IMG/VR virus record: IMGVR_UViG_3300045996_000738
Location: 1-22,075 of that record
Reading direction: 5' to 3' (one strand)
Origin: a virus
Length of the DNA stretch: 22,075 nucleotides
Position numbers and translations under genes: made by a program. This document shows, piece after piece, positions 12,401-22,075 of the stretch (position 1 is the stretch's first letter; the number at the start of each line of letters is the position of its first letter). The notes below the pieces were generated by a model, which saw only the letters and a list, made by a program, of their open reading frames with translations, did no database searches and was not told where the DNA came from.

Positions 12401-12910
12401 TTACTCGCCGCGGACGGCCTCCTCCAGAGCGTCGAACGCCTCGGAGAGCTGCTGCTGAGCATCGTTGATCGCGCTCGGATCACCGCCTTGGTTGGCCTTG
12501 AACTCCACCGCCCTAGTCGACGCGGTGAGCGCGGCCTGCCGCGCGGTGGACAGCTCGCCAAGCACGTTCGTGGTCGCGGCATCGTCGCCGGTGCCGCCCT
12601 GGAGCCCGCCCGTCAGGACGGTGCTGAGCTGCTCGCTCGACGCCTGCACGCCCAGATCGCCGCGGTCCTTGGTCGGGTCCGACTCGCCGGCCTCTTCCTC
12701 GGGCTTGACCTCGGTGTTCCCTTCCTCGTCAGCGACCAGGACGCCGCTCTTCGGGGGCTCGATGGTGCGCGTCTCCTCGGCCTCCAGCGTGTGCGCGACT
12801 GTCACCTCGTCTTCAGGCTGCTTGTCCTGCTCGGACTGAGCTGCGCCCTGCTCGACCTGCTGGGCCTCTTCCTCGACCTGCCCGCTGTCGGGGCTCTTCT
12901 TCCTGCTCAC
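12401..12910 (-). CDS. Acidic, largely disordered protein in the connector module
   Basis: This encodes 169 residues. Residues 1-95 are Glu/Gln/Asp-rich and low complexity (VEEEAQQVEQGAAQSEQDKQ, EVKPEEEAGESDPTKD) with no hydrophobic core. Residues about 100-169 are more ordered and helical (LGELSTARQAALTASTRAVE, INDAQQQLSEAFDALEEAVR). The start overlaps the stop of the gp36-like gene by four bases (ATGA), showing coupling. I recognise no family. A charge mimic, a scaffold-like helper or a flexible virion component are all possible. The Glu-rich codons (GAG, GAA) keep it similar in base composition to its neighbours, so there is no sign of recent transfer. Confidence 0.65.
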   Translation of the reverse strand: MSRKKSPDSGQVEEEAQQVEQGAAQSEQDKQPEDEVTVAHTLEAEETRTIEPPKSGVLVADEEGNTEVKPEEEAGESDPTKDRGDLGVQASSEQLSTVLTGGLQGGTGDDAATTNVLGELSTARQAALTASTRAVEFKANQGGDPSAINDAQQQLSEAFDALEEAVRGE

Positions 12911-13371
12911 GGCGTCGTCCTCCAGTTGTCGAACAGATCAGTGTCCGGGATCGTCTCGAAAGGCTGGCCGCGAAAGAGCGGCGTTCCCGTCGTGTTCGAC
13001 CACGGCAGAGGGTCGGTGCTACTTGCTAGTGCCGTGCCGCTGTCCGTTACAAGATCAATCTTACCGTAGGCGAGATCGTCCAGAAGCGTGAGGGATCGCA
13101 GGAAGGGAGCGGCCGCATCGCTCTCCTTCTCGGTCCTTTGCGCCGCAAGGCGGGTGGTGATCAAGCGATAGGTTGCCAGGTCGGCCGTGATCGTCTGGAT
13201 GACGGCCGGTACGGGGTTGAAGGGGACGCCGTAGCGACCGGAGAGCTTCAGGTCCACGATGCTCTGCTCGGCCGCGATGATCGACTCGATGTCGTCCACG
13301 GTCACGGCTTGCGAGCGCTGGATCAGCGGCCAGCGCTGCTGCACGTCCTCAACCGTGGCATAGGCCGCCAT
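12907..13371 (-). CDS. Head-tail connector, Mu gp36-like (DUF1320 family)
   Basis: This encodes 154 residues from ATG at 13371. An in-frame upstream start at 13446 would add 25 Arg-rich residues overlapping the previous gene by over 70 bases; the 13371 start has AAGGA upstream and lies just past the previous stop, so I prefer it. The N-terminus YATVEDVQQRWP, followed by VDDIESIIAAEQSIVDLKLSG-like helices and RYGVPFNPVPAVIQTITADL, is the DUF1320 signature: an N-terminal helix, a helix ending in ...RYxVP, then a helix starting PxxI. Mu gp36 belongs to this family, whose members act at the head-tail junction. The last 50 residues (PLPWSNTTGTPLF, TDLFDNWRTTP) resemble the extended tail common in the family. 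Confidence 0.85.
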   Translation of the reverse strand: MAAYATVEDVQQRWPLIQRSQAVTVDDIESIIAAEQSIVDLKLSGRYGVPFNPVPAVIQTITADLATYRLITTRLAAQRTEKESDAAAPFLRSLTLLDDLAYGKIDLVTDSGTALASSTDPLPWSNTTGTPLFRGQPFETIPDTDLFDNWRTTP

Positions 13372-13373
13372 CG

Positions 13374-13910
13374 TCAACCGTCCTTCGCGTCCACGAGCTG
13401 GAGCCGCCATTCGGCGCCGCAGTCGAAGCTCAGCCGCGTCGCCCAATCCAAGCCGGCTCTGATCACCTCTTGATCGTCCTTACCACATTCCCGCGACGCG
13501 CTCATAGCGCCGAGGGCAAAGTCCCTGCCGGAACCGGCCGCTGCGAACGGCTCGACCGCCACCGGGGCAAAATCCCGCCCGAACGACCATAGCCCACGAC
13601 CATTGGTCAGGAGGAACTCGGACTCGACGCAGAACGGCCCGCCGTCCAAATCCTTGGTCCGCTCAAAACCCTCGGCCTGAAGGGCTTCCCGGAGCCGGCG
13701 TGCGATCGCCAGAGCGCCCGCAGGTGCAGTTCCATCAAGCACGCCCTGCGCGACCAGAAAGCTCAAATAGTCGCCGCAAGCGCCGATGTGCCACCCCTGG
13801 CGCGATGCCCACTTCAGACCGACCGAGACGCGAAGACCATTATCAGAGAGGCCCGTGTCGCTACCGATGAAGCAGCCGCCCATCGTCAGGTGTGCCGCAA
13901 TGATGCTCAC
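13374..13910 (-). CDS. Proteasome/HslV-like Ntn-hydrolase with N-terminal serine
   Basis: This encodes 178 residues. Counting from Ser2 as mature residue 1, the sequence SIIAAHLTMGGCFIGSD places Asp at position 17, as in HslV and proteasome beta subunits, and Lys at 32 (GLKWASR) near the catalytic Lys33. WHIGACGDYLSF matches the strand after it (HslV VIAGFAGGTADA). ESEFLLTNGRGLWSF parallels the DETASLIITGNGDV segment, and AAGSGRDFALGAM matches the IGSGGPYAQAAA turn and helix. The nucleophile would be Ser rather than Thr, exposed by Met removal, which is efficient after Met-Ser. No ATPase partner is seen in the window. Length fits HslV (about 175). It overlaps the preceding stop by four bases (ATGA). 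Activity and substrate are unknown; the fold assignment is from motif order only. Confidence 0.7.
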   Translation of the reverse strand: MSIIAAHLTMGGCFIGSDTGLSDNGLRVSVGLKWASRQGWHIGACGDYLSFLVAQGVLDGTAPAGALAIARRLREALQAEGFERTKDLDGGPFCVESEFLLTNGRGLWSFGRDFAPVAVEPFAAAGSGRDFALGAMSASRECGKDDQEVIRAGLDWATRLSFDCGAEWRLQLVDAKDG

Positions 13911-14224
13911 CTCCCTATCCCTTCGCGCGCGGCGAGCAGGGCGCGGGCCGCCTCCCTGTAAGGCAGTACCGGATCAGGCGCGGGCCGCCCGAGCAGAGCA
14001 CCGATCGTGCGAGCGAAGAAGCCGCCCCCATCCTCGTACACGTCCTGCCCCTTTCTCAACGCGAGGTGATAGGCGTCGATCTCCTGCCACCCGATCGAGT
14101 CCAGAAGGGCGTCGGAGTAAGTGACCACGATCTCGGCCGCCAGCTCCCGGCTGTACCCCCGCCGCTCCGCTTCCGAGCAAGCGGCATCAAGGGCGATATC
14201 GTGTGCGCTCCTGGCCGTGTCCAT
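13907..14224 (-). CDS. Small helical protein of unknown function
   Basis: This encodes 105 residues, helical and soluble: AHDIALDAACSEAERRGYSR, ELAAEIVVTYSDALLDSIGW, HLALRKGQDVYEDGGGFFAR, then a helix with YREAARALLAAREGIG. No signal peptide, membrane segment or known motif is visible. A Shine-Dalgarno-like GGAGAGG lies about 9 bases before the ATG. It begins 4 bases after the secreted Cys-rich gene and its stop overlaps the start of the Ntn-hydrolase gene (ATGA), so it may be a partner of that protein. The coupling is an observation; partnership is inference. Confidence 0.6.
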   Translation of the reverse strand: MDTARSAHDIALDAACSEAERRGYSRELAAEIVVTYSDALLDSIGWQEIDAYHLALRKGQDVYEDGGGFFARTIGALLGRPAPDPVLPYREAARALLAAREGIGR

Positions 14225-14228
14225 GATG

Positions 14229-14543
14229 CTAGACCTCTCCGGGCATGATCACGCAGAGGATGTTGGGCTGGCCCTCGAGATGCCCCCAGCAGGCATGAAG
14301 CTGTCCGTCAGGAGAGGGCAGATCGATGATCCTGTCCCGAGGGATCGGTCGGCAGGCTCCCTCGATCTGTAGCCCCTCCTTTCTGTCGGGAAGAGAGCAG
14401 GACTCGACCGGGAAGCAATCCTTCCCGTTGCAGCACGAGCCGCCGGTTGGGTTCTTCAGGCCGGAGTACCACTCGTGCGCAGCGGCTCCGCTGGCGATCA
14501 GAGAGAGGCCGACCGCAAGGGGCGCGACTTTCCGGTTTGTCAT
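14229..14543 (-). CDS. Secreted Cys-rich small protein
   Basis: This encodes 104 residues from ATG at 14543, overlapping the glycosyltransferase stop as TGATG; a GTG three codons upstream (14552) is an alternative. Residues 1-22 form a signal peptide (MTNRK, hydrophobic PLAVGLSLIASG, cleavage after AAA). The mature part starts HEWYSGLKNPTGGSCC and has seven Cys (SCC, KDC, ESC, GAC, HAC, ILC), suggesting disulfides in the periplasm. Small HxWY...CC..xDC exported proteins are familiar to me from Rhizobiales genomes and their prophages, where their function is unknown. A cell-envelope role in the infected host or lysogen is possible. Its coupling to a glycosyltransferase gene may mean both act on the envelope. 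Confidence 0.75.
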   Translation of the reverse strand: MTNRKVAPLAVGLSLIASGAAAHEWYSGLKNPTGGSCCNGKDCFPVESCSLPDRKEGLQIEGACRPIPRDRIIDLPSPDGQLHACWGHLEGQPNILCVIMPGEV

Positions 14544-17500
14544 CAGAACCACGCCCCGCTGATTGGCTCGACGGCGGCCTTGGTTCGCGCTGCCATAAAG
14601 CGCTTGAAGTCGTCCACCGAAGCGAACCGCCGGGCCTCGGGGCCGACCGGATCGCCGATGCCCTGCCGCTGGGCCGCCACCTGCACGTCGGCTACCACGT
14701 CCGAGCCGAGCAGGTGCGTGGCCTCAAAGTAGAACCCTGCGGCATCGGCGGCCTGCCGTCCCGGGTCGTCGGCAAACGTCTCGCGGTAGATGCGGAGCAC
14801 GTCCTCGCACAGCTCGAACGCAGCAGGGTGCAGGCGGGCTGATCCAGGCTGGCTGAAGTCGACCCGGTTGCCGGCCAGTACCTTCTTGGCCTGAACCACG
14901 CTGTCCCGCATCATGATCATCAGGCCGAGCTTGCGATCCGGGTACTTGCGTTGATCCGCCATCAGCATCGGCAGGTTGCGCTCAAAGCGTCCCGAACGGG
15001 TGTTCTGATCCAAGTAGCCGACATGCGCCAGGTGCACGTCCGAGAGCAGGAGCGCCCGCCCGGCCCCTTCGTTGATCCCGAACTCGGCATGCTCGTGCAG
15101 GATGCCGAAGAAGCGCATAGGCTTGCCGCTCTCGCCGGGGCGGCGGCGGAACACGCGCGCCGGCAGGTCGGGCTTCCACCTCCCGTCAACCGCGAAATGA
15201 TGGTGCTGGATGGAGTAGCTGTGAAAGATGTTCTCGCGCAGATAACGCCACAGCGTGCGAGCGGAGATCATCCGCTCGTCCCCGTCGATCATCATGACCC
15301 AATCGCCCGTGCAGGCGTCGAGCACTGCATTGCGGCTGGCCTCGAAGCCTGCCTCGCGTGGCGGCGGGACCTTGACCGCCCGAGCGCCGTACCGTTCCCA
15401 AATGCGGCACGCTTCGTCGCTCGCGCCGGTGTCCCCGATCACTATCTCGTCGGCGATCGGCGCGATGCTCTCGAGGCACCAGTGCAAGGTCTGGTGGTCG
15501 TTCGGTCCGCCCACGATCATCATAGCGGAGAGAGTCTGCCGAGGGCGTTGCTGCCGCAGCTTGCGCTGCCAGTCGATTTCTCCGAGCGGCTTGTGGTCGA
15601 CCTGATAGGTGACGTGGGTGTTGCCCAGGACTTCGCCGGTCACCGGACACTGAGCCAGCGGCACCACGTCAAGCACTAGCTCAGACTTGCCGCCAAAGAT
15701 GTCCTCAAGATCGGCGTTGCTCCACTCGCGGAGATGCTGTCCACGAAGAGGCTCCGGCTGCTGCGTCTCCCACGGGCCGTAGGGCATGGTGATGCAGATC
15801 AGCCCGCCCGGCTTGACGTAGCCCTCGATCCGCTCGACCAGGGCGATCGGGTCGGCGACATGCTCCAGCACCTCGGCCATGATCGCGACGTCGAAGCCCA
15901 GGCCGTGCTTCCAATGATCGGCGAACTGCCCTTCCAGCCGCTCGTCATCACAAATGAATGTTAGTCCATGAGGATGCTTGGCCTTTGCAAATGCCAGCTT
16001 CTTTGCGCGGCTCACCTCATCAGGACTGGCGTCGACCCCGACGTAGTCCGCCCCGAGCCGATTACTGAGCGTTACTGCACACTCGCCCTGGCTGCAGCCG
16101 AAGTCCAGAATCCACAGCGGCTCACGGCCCGGCTGCGGACCCAGCTCCGGACCCATCTTGAAGTGCCGCCGGATGCTCTGGTCCATCATGTGGAAGCGCG
16201 CGAAGGGCCGCTCCATGAATCGGTCGTCAGGCGCATGGTTCAGGAGCCCCTGGAACACATGCTCGTTTCCCGGCCCGACCTTCCCTTCGTAGTAGGCCGC
16301 CAGGGTCTCGGGAGTGTCGGCGTGCGCGAACCGCTCCACGAGCCAATCGGCGATCGGCCGGATGCGATCTGCATCCTCTGGCTGGAACCGGCCGTCGAGT
16401 ACAGCGCCCACCATCTCGTCGGCTGCCTCAATGTCCTGCCGGCGGATGAAGTGCCGGGCGAGCCGCACCGGATCGGCGCACTCCTGCTCCATGATCGCCA
16501 GCGCTTCGTTGACGACCTGCATCGCGACAGGAGCCCACCCGAGGCCGGCCGCACGGCGGCGGCCTAGCTTCTGCATCTCCTCGGACACCTTCGCGTCCAT
16601 GAGAACCTCGCAGGCCGCGTCTGCCAAGGCAGCCGGCGTCTCCCCAGCACCCGCGTGGGGGCCGTCCAGCGGAACCAGCTCGCCACAGACGCCCACCGTC
16701 TCGGACAGCGCCCCCCGATCGGTAGAGACCCAGCACATCCCGCACGCCATCGCCTCCATCGCCGCGATGCAGGACGTGTCCGCGAAGCTTGGATCGAGCG
16801 CCCCGGGCGTCGGGTACAGGTACAGCCCTGCCTGATGGTACAGGTCGTAGAGCCGGGGCTTGTTCAGCCCTTCGATCCACGCCACCCGGGGCGTGCCGTC
16901 CGCATTGAACTTGGCCGCCAGGCGCTTCAGCTCTTCATGGACCACGGCTGTCTGCTGGGTCGTGAAGTCGTAGAACGTTATCGCCAGCTTCGCGTCGGGC
17001 ACCCGCTCGAGGATGCGCGGGTAGACCTGATTGAGCAGCACGTCCAGGCCTCGCTCCGGGCGAGCGCCGTAGACGATCAGCTTGGGGTCGCGCTTGTCGC
17101 CGCTCGCTTCGACCCGCTTCCTCGACGCCTCGATTTCCGCGAGGTCGATCCCGTTGCGGCTGACCATGAACAGGCGGTCCGGCAGATCGGGGTATGCCTC
17201 CTGCCACTGCCGGCGCTGCCAGTCGCTGACAGTAACCACACGGTCGATGTTGTGTGCGGCGGCGTAAAGCTCCGGCGCTCGTCGGGCGAACAGCAAGTCG
17301 TGCGCCCAGAGCATTGTCACCTTGGTCGGGAAGCGCATGGCCAGGTGCAGCGGCGAGCGCTGAACTATGATCAGATCACTCGGGGTGGCCGAGCAGACGT
17401 TGGAGAAGCTGCGCTCGGGAGCGAGGCGAACGTCGCGCCAGACGGCATGGCCGGGCACATTGCAGAACGCCGTGACCCTGTGCCCCAGCTCCGCAATAGC

Positions 17501-17608
17501 GGCGGCGAGCTGGAGGCCCGCCGTCTCTGAACCGCCAAGGGACTTGCTGTAGGGGTCTTCGGGGTCGATCGGCAAGCCGGGCACGAGCATGCGAATGTCG
17601 AGCTTCAT
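14543..17608 (-). CDS. Three-domain glycosyltransferase - SAM methyltransferase - glycosyltransferase
   Basis: This encodes 1021 residues. Residues 1-375 are a GT-B (GT4-like) glycosyltransferase: SLGGSETAGLQLAAAIAELG near residue 23, VVTVSDWQRR, SRNGIDLAEI and the sugar-nucleotide region DTSCIAAMEAMACGMCWVS (278-295). Residues about 380-490 are a helical linker. Residues 498-610 are a class I SAM methyltransferase: motif I LDFGCSQGE (501-509), acidic VGVDAS, then AEVLEHVADP (578-587) and VKPGGLICITMPYG. Residues about 690-900 are a GT-A (GT2-like) transferase with DEIVIGDTGASDE and the DGD metal motif in MIDGDER (774-779). The whole could build and methylate a short glycan on a virion protein or host surface. 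It lies just after a terminator following the capsid gene and overlaps the secreted protein gene. Domains are clear; the acceptor is unknown. Confidence 0.93.
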   Translation of the reverse strand: MKLDIRMLVPGLPIDPEDPYSKSLGGSETAGLQLAAAIAELGHRVTAFCNVPGHAVWRDVRLAPERSFSNVCSATPSDLIIVQRSPLHLAMRFPTKVTMLWAHDLLFARRAPELYAAAHNIDRVVTVSDWQRRQWQEAYPDLPDRLFMVSRNGIDLAEIEASRKRVEASGDKRDPKLIVYGARPERGLDVLLNQVYPRILERVPDAKLAITFYDFTTQQTAVVHEELKRLAAKFNADGTPRVAWIEGLNKPRLYDLYHQAGLYLYPTPGALDPSFADTSCIAAMEAMACGMCWVSTDRGALSETVGVCGELVPLDGPHAGAGETPAALADAACEVLMDAKVSEEMQKLGRRRAAGLGWAPVAMQVVNEALAIMEQECADPVRLARHFIRRQDIEAADEMVGAVLDGRFQPEDADRIRPIADWLVERFAHADTPETLAAYYEGKVGPGNEHVFQGLLNHAPDDRFMERPFARFHMMDQSIRRHFKMGPELGPQPGREPLWILDFGCSQGECAVTLSNRLGADYVGVDASPDEVSRAKKLAFAKAKHPHGLTFICDDERLEGQFADHWKHGLGFDVAIMAEVLEHVADPIALVERIEGYVKPGGLICITMPYGPWETQQPEPLRGQHLREWSNADLEDIFGGKSELVLDVVPLAQCPVTGEVLGNTHVTYQVDHKPLGEIDWQRKLRQQRPRQTLSAMMIVGGPNDHQTLHWCLESIAPIADEIVIGDTGASDEACRIWERYGARAVKVPPPREAGFEASRNAVLDACTGDWVMMIDGDERMISARTLWRYLRENIFHSYSIQHHHFAVDGRWKPDLPARVFRRRPGESGKPMRFFGILHEHAEFGINEGAGRALLLSDVHLAHVGYLDQNTRSGRFERNLPMLMADQRKYPDRKLGLMIMMRDSVVQAKKVLAGNRVDFSQPGSARLHPAAFELCEDVLRIYRETFADDPGRQAADAAGFYFEATHLLGSDVVADVQVAAQRQGIGDPVGPEARRFASVDDFKRFMAARTKAAVEPISGAWF

Positions 17609-18793: not shown

Positions 18794-19171
18794 CTAGCCG
18801 ACGTAGCGCCAGGGGCGGCAGATGATGGCGTCGAAGTAGTCGCCAGCCGCGGCGCTATACATCGACTCCGCAGAGACCCAATCCCCCGAGCCTGCCGGCG
18901 AGGCCGCGCCGAGCGAGTTGGTCGTGAGAAGCGTGCTGTGCCGGATCGCGGCTCCGGCGATCAGGCGATGCGGGCCGACGATGCAGAGCGACACCGCCTG
19001 ACCAGACTGCGGGGTGTTGTCGACCACGCCCCAGCCGCGGGCATCGATCCCACTGCCGCTCGAGGCGATGATCGCCACCCCGGCCGAATTGATGGTGCAG
19101 AACCGGCCCCAACTGTCGCTGAGGTCCTGCCCTGCCACCTTGGTCTCGTAGTACGCTGTGTAGTGGCTCAT
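18794..19171 (-). CDS. Probable capsid decoration (cement) protein
   Basis: This encodes 125 residues. It is beta-rich and Gly/Ser/Ala-rich: GVAIIASSGSGIDARGWGVV, NTPQSGQAVSLCIVGPHRLI, then AGAAIRHSTLLTTNSLG. The content (a value-like GVVxxxPxxGxxVSL...G..R..AGAAI core) resembles DUF2190-type and related decoration proteins that form trimers at capsid vertices; I recognise the style, not an exact family. It lies between the protease/scaffold and the major capsid gene, the standard position for such proteins. AGG is the only weak Shine-Dalgarno upstream. It ends 29 bases before the capsid start. Confidence 0.65.
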   Translation of the reverse strand: MSHYTAYYETKVAGQDLSDSWGRFCTINSAGVAIIASSGSGIDARGWGVVDNTPQSGQAVSLCIVGPHRLIAGAAIRHSTLLTTNSLGAASPAGSGDWVSAESMYSAAAGDYFDAIICRPWRYVG

Positions 19172-19201: not shown

Positions 19202-19915
19202 CTACTGCGTGATGCCGTTGTAGGCCCTCACCAGATTGGCGTTCTTGGGGTCTCGGCTGACGAGCTCCATGGCCGTGGCGAAGTCGACGCCGGGATGCTC
19301 GGTCGTGTACTGCTCGACCTTGTCGACCAGCTCCTTGCCCGGATCCTCGGAACCGAAGTCGCCGCGCTCGGCGTAGCTGCGGCTCGGCGCAACGGTGGTG
19401 AAGAACGGCTTGGCGCCATCTGCCAGCACCTCGATGAAGTCCTTGAGCACGGACAGCGACGGGACCGGCTTGGCCTCCTCGCCGTCGATCGCCGAGAACT
19501 TGACCGTGCGCTCGCCGCCCTCGCTCATGGCGTCGGCGAAGGCGGCGACGTAGCGGCGAAGGCGAGGGATCGGGCAGCTCTGGACGAGCGCCTTGACCTG
19601 GGCCTGTCGCGCCTGCTCCTTCTCCGCCTGCCTCTCGGCCTCCAGCGCCTGGACGCGCTCGCCCATCTCGCGGAGCCGCACCGTCGAGCTAGCGTTCTCG
19701 TTGGCCACCCGCGTGGCGGCGTCACGCTCTTGGCGAAGCGTGCGGATCTCGTCCAGGGCCTGCTGAAGCTGGCTGGAGACGCCGGCTGCATCCATGTTGA
19801 CAGCGCCAGCGCCGCCGCCGGCCTGCTCATGATTCTGCGTTCCGCCCGGCTTGTTGCCGGCGTCACCGCCACCGGTCTCTGTCCGACCGCCGGCATCTGC
19901 ATTCGGGACGGACAT
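19202..19915 (-). CDS. Nested in-frame scaffold protein (Mu gpZ-like)
   Basis: An internal ATG at codon 189 of the protease gene (MSVPNADAGG) has AGGAG six bases upstream, as good as the main start. Translation from it gives 237 residues containing only the Gly/Asn-rich linker, the coiled coil and the C-terminal capsid-binding part, without the protease domain. Mu makes scaffold protein Z from an internal start within I, and lambda makes Nu3 within C, so this design is established. That this ATG is used is inferred from the Shine-Dalgarno and domain boundary. Confidence 0.6.
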   Translation of the reverse strand: MSVPNADAGGRTETGGGDAGNKPGGTQNHEQAGGGAGAVNMDAAGVSSQLQQALDEIRTLRQERDAATRVANENASSTVRLREMGERVQALEAERQAEKEQARQAQVKALVQSCPIPRLRRYVAAFADAMSEGGERTVKFSAIDGEEAKPVPSLSVLKDFIEVLADGAKPFFTTVAPSRSYAERGDFGSEDPGKELVDKVEQYTTEHPGVDFATAMELVSRDPKNANLVRAYNGITQ

Positions 19916-20479
19916 GCTCCGCTCCTGCTCTGTTGGCTGCTTGCCTGGGGTCGTGACGTAGCTTCTAGCCTCTTCTGCGGCACCAAAGGAAGCAAGACTT
20001 GCACGTAGGGGCTTGAGGTTGCTGACGCCGGGCGGGTGCGCGCCGAGGATCGCCACCGCCTTGAGCGCTCGCGGGAACTTCTCCCCGTCGCGCTTCATGT
20101 TGATGAAGATCTCGGACGAGACCGTGTCATAGCGGCCGTCACGGATCAGCCCGACCAGATCGTCTGGCACATCCTCGAAGTCGGCGAGCAGTACGTCGCC
20201 CTCGCGCCGCGGGTTCTTGACCCAGCCGTAAGCGGGAGCCGCCGGATCGTCCACATGACCGAGCTTTACTGGCGGCACGTAGCCTGCCTTGCCGTAGGCG
20301 TCGATCATCTGGTCAATGTCGCTGGTCGTGTACTTCTCGCCGTTCCAGGTGCCGGACCGGAAAACCTCGATGCCCTTGATCGTCTGGCCGAACTCCTCGG
20401 TCCCGCCTTCGGGGACCGGCTCGAGCACCGGCATGGACACGGGTACGCTATCGGCCCCCGCCGTCTCGGTCACAGGCAT
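19202..20479 (-). CDS. Prohead protease with C-terminal scaffold (Mu gpI-like)
   Basis: This encodes 425 residues. The N-terminal domain (about 25-165) matches Mu gpI: KGIEVFRSGTWNG, TTSDIDQMIDAYG, PPVKLGHVDDPAAPAYGWV, a LLADFEDVPDDLVGLIRDG segment, YDTVSSEIF and AILGAHPPGVSNLKPL. His75, Ser121/122 and His148 are candidate catalytic residues of a serine-type, herpes-assemblin-like fold; this assignment is inferred. Residues about 165-228 are a Gly/Thr/Asn-rich linker. Residues 229-300 are a long coiled coil (LQQALDEIRTLRQERDAATR, VQALEAERQAEKEQARQAQV), as for scaffolds. The GAGGAG Shine-Dalgarno before the ATG is strong. The protein should cleave itself and the scaffold inside the prohead. 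Confidence 0.88.
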   Translation of the reverse strand: MPVTETAGADSVPVSMPVLEPVPEGGTEEFGQTIKGIEVFRSGTWNGEKYTTSDIDQMIDAYGKAGYVPPVKLGHVDDPAAPAYGWVKNPRREGDVLLADFEDVPDDLVGLIRDGRYDTVSSEIFINMKRDGEKFPRALKAVAILGAHPPGVSNLKPLRASLASFGAAEEARSYVTTPGKQPTEQERSMSVPNADAGGRTETGGGDAGNKPGGTQNHEQAGGGAGAVNMDAAGVSSQLQQALDEIRTLRQERDAATRVANENASSTVRLREMGERVQALEAERQAEKEQARQAQVKALVQSCPIPRLRRYVAAFADAMSEGGERTVKFSAIDGEEAKPVPSLSVLKDFIEVLADGAKPFFTTVAPSRSYAERGDFGSEDPGKELVDKVEQYTTEHPGVDFATAMELVSRDPKNANLVRAYNGITQ

Positions 20480-20789: not shown

Positions 20790-20999
20790 TCAGCCTGCCT
20801 TGCCGGCGAACGCCAGCTCTACCCAGGGGCCCAGCCACACGGCGGCGGTCGCGCCGAACAGCAGAGCCAGCAGGCCAGCAAGAAGGTTACTGCCCGTGAC
20901 AGCGATAACGACCGGTGCCGTGATCAGTGCCGCCGGGTACCCGCCGATGAAGCTGGAAAGTACCTGCGAAACAGGGTCACGGGCGGGGCTTGGGGTCAT
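20790..20999 (-). CDS. Small two-helix membrane protein
   Basis: This encodes 69 residues. A soluble N-terminus (MTPSPARDPVSQVLSS) precedes two hydrophobic helices at about 17-36 (FIGGYPAALITAPVVIAVTG) and 39-58 (LLAGLLALLFGATAAVWLGP) with a short GSN turn, and a short polar end. No signal-peptide cleavage site is seen. The ATGA overlap with the minor head gene shows coupling. Size and two-helix layout recall holins or superinfection-exclusion proteins, but no lysin gene is near, so the function is open. Confidence 0.6.
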   Translation of the reverse strand: MTPSPARDPVSQVLSSFIGGYPAALITAPVVIAVTGSNLLAGLLALLFGATAAVWLGPWVELAFAGKAG

Positions 21000-22075
21000 T
21001 CTGCTCTTCCTCCGAACTGCTCAGGTGCGAGGGCGTTCGCCTCGCCCAGATCGCGCGACGAGATCGGCTCCAGCTCCATGTCTAGCGTGATCGGTAGGAG
21101 TATGCTCCTACATCTATAATGATTCGGCGGTGTGAAGTTGTCGAGCACCGGATCGTCTATGCGGAACTGCTTGCCGTGCAGGTGACGGCAGATCGGCGTC
21201 GTCACCCGGTCGAGCACCGCAGAATACTGCATCCCCTTGACCAAGCCGCGCCCCGACAGCCGGCGCGCCTCCACGATCCGACCCTGATTGTAGGCCGCCG
21301 TGCTCTGTGTCCGCACCACCGTCAGCATCCGATCGGCGCGCAGCGCCTGCGGATCGAGGCCGGGTGAGCCGACCCACGGAGAAAGCGCCTCGAGGATGCG
21401 ACCGCTCGTCTCGCGGAACGGGCGGCCGTAGCGCAGGCCCTCCAGGATCTCGTTCCGGGCTATGTCGGTGAACTTCTCGACCAGCCCCGAGATGAACAAG
21501 GTCGCCTTGGCTCGCAGCCACGCGATCGCCGCCTCGGGAACGAAGGTCGGCAGCGCAACGTCGAACTCCTGCGCCTGCCTCGCCTCGGTCCGGCAGTCGG
21601 CCGCGCCCTGGCGGTAGAGCGCCGTCATGCTCTTGACGTAAGCGGCTGTCACCGCGGGCGGTAGCTCGAGCTTGACCTTCCCGACACCGGCCAGCGTCGG
21701 CGGCCGGCGCTCGAGCTCGGACAGCTTGGCCTGCACCGCCTTGCGGGCGGCGATCGATACCATCCGCACGCCCTGACGATCGAGCCCGTCGAGCCGCTCG
21801 ACCACCTGCGCGAAGTCCACCCGGCGCTCGGCCACGGTGAGCGAGGGATCATCCCGCGGCGGCGGCTCGGGATCGGGGATGTCGGAGGCCGCTTCCTCGG
21901 CCTGCTCGCGCACCTTCTCCTCGCCCAGATCCAAAGGCTTGATGAACTCGCCGCCCAGCATGATGGCGAACGTCGGCGGCTCGACCGGTAGCTCGCCCTT
22001 GTGATCGTAGGACAGGGTGACGTGCGGCCGGTAGGTCGGATAACCCCACGATGCGCCCAGCCGCTCGGCCTCCTC
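20996..22075 (-). CDS. Minor head protein (SPP1 gp7 / Mu gpF family) with N-terminal 2H-phosphoesterase-like part; N-terminus beyond window
   Basis: The frame is open to the right edge. The C-terminal 250 residues are a phage head morphogenesis domain: TQSTAAYNQGRIVEARRLSG, then a DRVTTPICRHLHGKQF Cys/His knuckle and FTPPNHYRCRSILLPIT, the family signature (PICxxLxGK...PPHxxCRS). It joins the portal in early prohead assembly. Upstream, the segment YRPHVTLSYDHKGELP continuing into FAIMLGGEFIKPLDLG fits the second H-x-T motif and last strand of a 2H phosphoesterase. Such domains are fused to portal or minor-head genes in Mu-like phages and include the anti-CBASS Acb1 fold. The first H-x-T motif would lie outside the window, so activity cannot be judged. 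An ATG at 21961 is an unlikely start because it splits this segment. Confidence 0.85.
   Translation of the reverse strand, partial: EEAERLGASWGYPTYRPHVTLSYDHKGELPVEPPTFAIMLGGEFIKPLDLGEEKVREQAEEAASDIPDPEPPPRDDPSLTVAERRVDFAQVVERLDGLDRQGVRMVSIAARKAVQAKLSELERRPPTLAGVGKVKLELPPAVTAAYVKSMTALYRQGAADCRTEARQAQEFDVALPTFVPEAAIAWLRAKATLFISGLVEKFTDIARNEILEGLRYGRPFRETSGRILEALSPWVGSPGLDPQALRADRMLTVVRTQSTAAYNQGRIVEARRLSGRGLVKGMQYSAVLDRVTTPICRHLHGKQFRIDDPVLDNFTPPNHYRCRSILLPITLDMELEPISSRDLGEANALAPEQFGGRAE

Follow-up and report, generated by a model that had tools for sequence, protein, structure and literature searches.

The substrates of the glycosyltransferases GmaR, SunS and ThuS are flagellin or bacteriocin peptides; to our knowledge none of the three carries fused GT4 and methyltransferase domains. 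In the case of GmaR, N-acetylglucosamine is added to flagellin (PMC9638930). Among viruses, A064R of chlorovirus PBCV-1 is a GT-GT-methyltransferase chain that elongates the major capsid protein's glycan and caps it by methylation (PMC7826918), and in mycobacteriophages Che8 and Rita glycans are reported in covalent linkage to the capsid proteins, with phage glycosyltransferases implicated (Freeman et al, 2023, cited in PMC11256854). The locus considered here lies in a virus record of 22,075 bases, a tailed-phage fragment, the whole of which is called the window below. It encodes a GT4 domain, a SAM methyltransferase (MT) domain and a GT2 domain, from N- to C-terminus, on a single chain of 1021 amino acids, as identified using Pfam and PHROGs. 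The enzyme and its parts are the following.

14543..17608, minus strand: three-domain enzyme GT4-MT-GT2, 1021 aa (Pfam/PHROGs; AlphaFold2 model built from 45 sequences, mean pLDDT 92.8, pTM 0.91)
16484..17608, minus strand: GT4 / GT-B domain, residues 1-375 (PF13692, E 3e-12; PF00534; PF13439)
17048..17062, minus strand: RPERG motif of the GT4 domain, residues 183-187 (invariant in 46/46 sequences)
16754..16780, minus strand: EX7E-type motif of the GT4 domain, residues 277-285 (E285 invariant in 46 sequences)
15584..16153, minus strand: SAM methyltransferase domain, approximately residues 486-675 (PF13489, E 2e-16; PF08242; PF08241)
15008..15541, minus strand: GT2 / GT-A domain, approximately residues 690-867 (PF00535)
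15275..15286, minus strand: DGDE motif, residues 775-778, the DxD site for metal and nucleotide-sugar (D775, D777 and E778 invariant in 46 sequences)
15092..15097, minus strand: HE motif, residues 838-839 (H838/E839 in 45/46; aligns with the HE of GmaR)
14543..15007, minus strand: C-terminal helical region, residues 868-1021 (from the secondary structure of the model; same position as the TPR part of GmaR)

The reading frame is unbroken and has no internal stop, its codon-position GC equals that of the adjoining head and tail genes, and the gene is also present in a twin contig (L002) that shares 99.98% DNA identity with the window over 9,749 aligned bases. Catalytic residues were sought domain by domain in an alignment of 46 full-length fusions and proved to be near-invariant. 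Of the 46 sequences, 44 have E at position 277 of the EX7E-type motif, and the other two, the window's and its twin's, have D. In the methyltransferase domain, G504, E579 and H583 are invariant, E582 occurs in 45/46 and position 502 is either D or E, and R759 and N760 are likewise invariant across the fusions. A two-Rossmann fold together with the EX7E-type motif places the first domain among the GT4 (GT-B) glycosyltransferases, a Rossmann fold with motif I (of the D-x-G-x-x-x-G type) makes the second a class I SAM methyltransferase, and the third has the features of the GmaR/SunS/ThuS type (a GT-A domain, DxD and a conserved HE). The ORF is a genuine fusion of GT4 (GT-B), SAM methyltransferase and GT2 (GT-A, DGDE) domains; the original prediction of three domains in a 1021-residue chain, including a DGD-type GT-A transferase, is borne out by Pfam and by the conserved motifs. 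The model places helices at residues 868-967, where the match to TPR is weak (E 0.11). No membrane segment was found in the chain, as no stretch of 19 residues is hydrophobic enough (maximum 1.33).

Foldseek comparison of the model matched the GT-B part to glycogen synthase, BshA, GlgM and PimB', while SunS and ThuS ranked first among GT-A enzymes. No full-length structural twin was found, and the best matches in the viral library superpose poorly over the full length (TMq ~0.3). The methyltransferase domain matches solved methyltransferases of many kinds, D-glucose O-methyltransferase among them. When a profile of the GT2 domain was compared with the PDB, the best matches were GmaR (E 6.5e-36), SunS (8e-25) and ThuS (1e-22), with the next solved GT2 enzyme among the matches listed at 1.5e-9; this comparison covers solved structures, and the closeness may be biased, as there may be no solved member here of the LPS/LOS beta-1,4-glucosyltransferases, after which phrog_13126, a further match, is labelled. 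The chain is not filed as SunS, since it scores 17.5 bits against the S-glycosyltransferase family TIGR04195, for which the curated cut-off is 350 bits.

In order of transcription, the window encodes a MuF-like protein, a head protease, a DUF2190-like protein, the major capsid protein, the enzyme, three small genes, a gp36-like connector, and neck and tail genes that include a tape measure of 2,182 amino acids. The neighbours of the enzyme gene are as follows.

19202..20479, minus strand: head maturation protease (phrog_976, E 3e-39)
18794..19171, minus strand: DUF2190-like small head protein (phrog_673; same place as DUF2190 in phage YPCBV-1)
17784..18764, minus strand: major capsid protein of the HK97 fold, the probable glycan acceptor (phrog_1005, E 3e-44)
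14229-14552, minus strand: small protein that contains Cys and may have a signal peptide (resembles sequences on Sinorhizobium and Skermanella plasmids)
13907-14224, minus strand: second small gene between enzyme and connector
13374-13910, minus strand: HslV-like peptidase (phrog_1040)
12907..13425, minus strand: gp36-like head-tail connector (PF07030, phrog_195)

The capsid protein model (pLDDT 91.2) matches 3bjq (TMq up to 0.78) and then capsids of the HK97 fold. The enzyme gene had been described as lying between the capsid and connector genes; this location holds, with the qualification that the three small genes (13374-14552) separate it from the connector. These three are missing from the closest relative (L017), in which the connector directly follows the enzyme. 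The plasmid likeness of the first of them is a weak hint that the host may be an alphaproteobacterium. At the other end of the module, a head protein carries an Acb1-like (anti-CBASS) domain (PF23474, E 5e-30) joined in frame ahead of its MuF domain, in the window (20996-22075, minus strand) as well as in its twin (2-1525). MuF is fused to a Mu-type portal in relatives, so the virion may contain this anti-defence domain.

With the whole enzyme as the query, the sole match among viral contigs was the near-identical twin, and scans from single proteins in general yielded either one near-identical contig or no relative. None of 50,697 phage records covers 80% of the enzyme, with matches reaching ~30% of its length at 21-26% identity, and the genome contigs scanned gave no useful bacterial relative. 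Relatives were gathered using an alignment of the GT4 domain (from the window and from distant phage and plasmid sequences), which yielded 80 viral loci. In 48 of these, GT4, MT and GT2 follow in that order within one ORF, mostly of 950-1060 aa, usually a short distance downstream of a related capsid gene and ahead of connector and tail genes. The closest relative is 47% identical in GT4, 44% in MT, 53% in GT2 and 51% in the capsid protein.

Some loci depart from this layout or carry additional genes. The fusion of L043 (9989-12880) is inverted relative to the head genes, yet it still lies between capsid and tail genes. In L067, L080 and L091 (records of 393, 19 and 436 kb), the chains are GT2-MT-GT4, of ~1,100 aa, with more GT4 genes nearby, and those of L067 and L091 have TPR matches. 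Small beta-rich proteins (with a motif like QWAGRTTISSGSATVTVST) follow the capsid gene in L099, L101, L104, L110, L125 and L128, some of them with long LamG-like proteins; proteins of both kinds lie between capsid gene and enzyme and are possible head decorations. Lastly, L174 (G004, the 45.8-kb record behind L154) has genes at 104-2243 that by eye resemble QueC, QueE and QueD, which belong to the 7-deazaguanine pathway and possibly to DNA modification.

The original prediction had also considered the gene to be rare cargo. As a reverse test, an alignment (A3) of seven capsid proteins was used to fetch capsid genes irrespective of the enzyme, which returned 80 loci (66 clusters at 95% identity), and the enzyme was scored as present if GT4 plus MT lay within 6 kb after the capsid gene on the same strand. 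Where 5 kb or more of sequence follows the capsid gene, the enzyme was present in 37/37 loci, and where 3.5 kb follows, in 44/45; it starts at a median of ~450 nt past the capsid gene. The lone exception at 3.5 kb, L106, is a contig that ends 4.2 kb after the capsid gene, and in other loci the fusion lies up to 5 kb from that gene. As the seeds were taken from enzyme-bearing phages, this universality is valid for the clade and not for all phrog_1005 capsids; for CRP-6, YPCBV-1, Bise and RDJL Phi 1, whose capsids are more remotely related, the annotated stretches consulted contain no such gene. Pairwise distances of the capsid protein and of the enzyme's domains are correlated (rho 0.74-0.80; 0/500 permutations), as expected for genes that are inherited together. 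The claim of rare cargo therefore fails, since every sufficiently long relative recovered has the fusion, and a recent gain is rejected by composition, by universality within the clade and by co-inheritance with the capsid gene.

Fusions were also found beside a second type of capsid. In L049, L051 and L068, GT4-MT-GT2 fusions lie downstream of an unrelated capsid family (SU10_MCP, PF17236 / phrog_1328), and a scan using the capsid of L049 returned seven contigs (including those of L049 and L051 themselves), all seven with the fusion 211-254 bases downstream, although three of these fusions are interrupted by contig ends. Fusions with the opposite domain order follow either capsid type: GT2-TPR-MT-GT4 after a phrog_1005 capsid gene in L095, and GT2-TPR-GT4 after a phrog_1328 capsid gene in podophage ctKR88 (MW202524). 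That such fusions are paired repeatedly with two families of capsid would be difficult to account for if the enzyme did not act on the head. Considering the presence in 37/37 loci, the co-divergence with the capsid and the fusions beside the second capsid type, the fusion belongs to the core genes of a lineage of uncultured phages, in which it is linked to the capsid gene.

We consider it probable that the phage encodes a soluble enzyme which, in three steps, glycosylates one of its virion proteins inside the infected cell, and that this protein is most likely the major capsid protein encoded next door. Glycosylation of the head protein would take place before or during assembly: the GT2 domain, which is GmaR/SunS-like and presumably metal-dependent, would begin the glycan by attaching a sugar to the side chain of a Ser, Thr or Cys, a second sugar would be added from a nucleotide-sugar donor by the GT4 domain, and the methyltransferase would cap the glycan by O-methylation, with shielding, stability or attachment as the possible benefit. 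This order of steps is drawn from the relatives of the GT2 domain, and we infer acceptor, sugars, step order and benefit from sequence, structure prediction and gene order. A stepwise build-up of a glycan with methyl capping, as originally proposed, fits the domain make-up. The capsid protein is named as the likeliest acceptor since its gene adjoins that of the enzyme and is inherited with it; adjacency to the capsid gene is linkage, not proof of the substrate. More tentatively, and with slightly more doubt than belief, we suggest that a whole lineage of uncultured tailed phages may depend on such an "initiate, extend, methyl-cap" fusion to coat its capsid with a methylated glycan, and that capsid types may have acquired machines of this kind repeatedly, with differing domain orders. 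If so, capsid glycosylation would be a standard trait of head assembly in these phages and not an oddity.

The original prediction left open whether the glycan is built on the virion or on surface sugars of the host, and the evidence favours a virion protein, with host surface sugars less likely. Modification of LPS, capsule or a lipid-linked intermediate, which would block superinfection or change a receptor, is nevertheless the best of the alternatives, albeit an unlikely one. LPS enzymes occur in both the GT4 and GT2 families, phrog_13126, with the label beta-1,4-glycosyltransferase, is among the matches of the GT2 domain, and phrog_2170 is classed as moron. Against it, the chain lacks a membrane segment and the window showed neither a flippase nor a membrane partner; in addition, a gene for surface modification would not be expected to stay beside two unrelated capsid genes and to occur in every relative of the clade. 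Nor does the locus resemble a Gtr-type serotype-conversion system, as the chain is soluble and no flippase or bactoprenol-glucosyltransferase families are among the scanned genes of the window, itself a fragment. A virion protein is thus preferred over host sugars on the basis of the GT2 matches, the soluble chain, the lack of a flippase or membrane partner in the window and the near-universal link to the capsid.

Somewhat less probable is that a cytoplasmic or surface protein of the host, such as flagellin or pilin, is glycosylated during infection; flagellin is the target of GmaR, which leads the solved matches to the GT2 domain, but this reading would not account for the constant position of the enzyme gene behind the capsid gene or for its vertical co-inheritance with it. 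It is less probable again, if only slightly, that the acceptor is a virion protein other than the major capsid protein (a decoration, head fibre or tail protein). The beta-rich or LamG-like proteins between capsid gene and enzyme in several relatives would suit this, but in the window, in its closest relative and in many others the enzyme begins ~100-500 nt past the capsid gene, which leaves no space for decoration genes in those loci. Phages do have glycosyltransferases for DNA bases, but glycosylation of the phage's DNA for evasion of restriction is very improbable here, given that no DNA glycosyltransferase was matched by the domains in the libraries searched and that the gene is located in the head module.

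Glycosylation of the major capsid protein, the reading we prefer, has a known parallel in PBCV-1 A064R, which also joins two glycosyltransferase domains and a sugar O-methyltransferase on one viral chain. That chain differs in its order (GT-GT-MT), in its length (638 aa) and in belonging to a eukaryotic virus, and the likeness drawn here is one of domain content. Che8 and Rita are, like the window's lineage, tailed phages, and their capsid proteins are reported to bear glycans, which are predicted in the lineage described here; in Maravista, an F1 phage related to them, putative glycosyltransferase genes are located close to the genome's 3' end and not in a three-domain fusion beside the capsid gene (PMC11256854). 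GmaR, SunS and ThuS share with the enzyme the GT2 catalytic domain, the DxD and HE motifs and a helical part after GT2, which in the window's enzyme is only weakly TPR-like. In ctKR88, GT2 and GT4 are likewise on one chain a short distance downstream of the major capsid gene, but in reverse order, with no methyltransferase in the chain, beside an unrelated capsid type and with separate glycosyltransferase genes adjoining. The limited open-access literature searched yielded no report of a GT4-MT-GT2 fusion, of its constant position behind capsid genes or of its near-universal presence in a lineage of uncultured phages. A conserved three-domain enzyme of this kind would give a single-protein test system for protein O- or S-glycosylation with methyl capping, with a bearing on the stability, adsorption and immune recognition of phage particles. 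Considering A064R together with Che8 and Rita, the principle of virion glycosylation is already known, with glycosylated phage particles so far known from few isolates; with a conserved enzyme locked to the capsid genes of dozens of uncultured phages, it would become possible to predict the glycosylation of virions from sequence.
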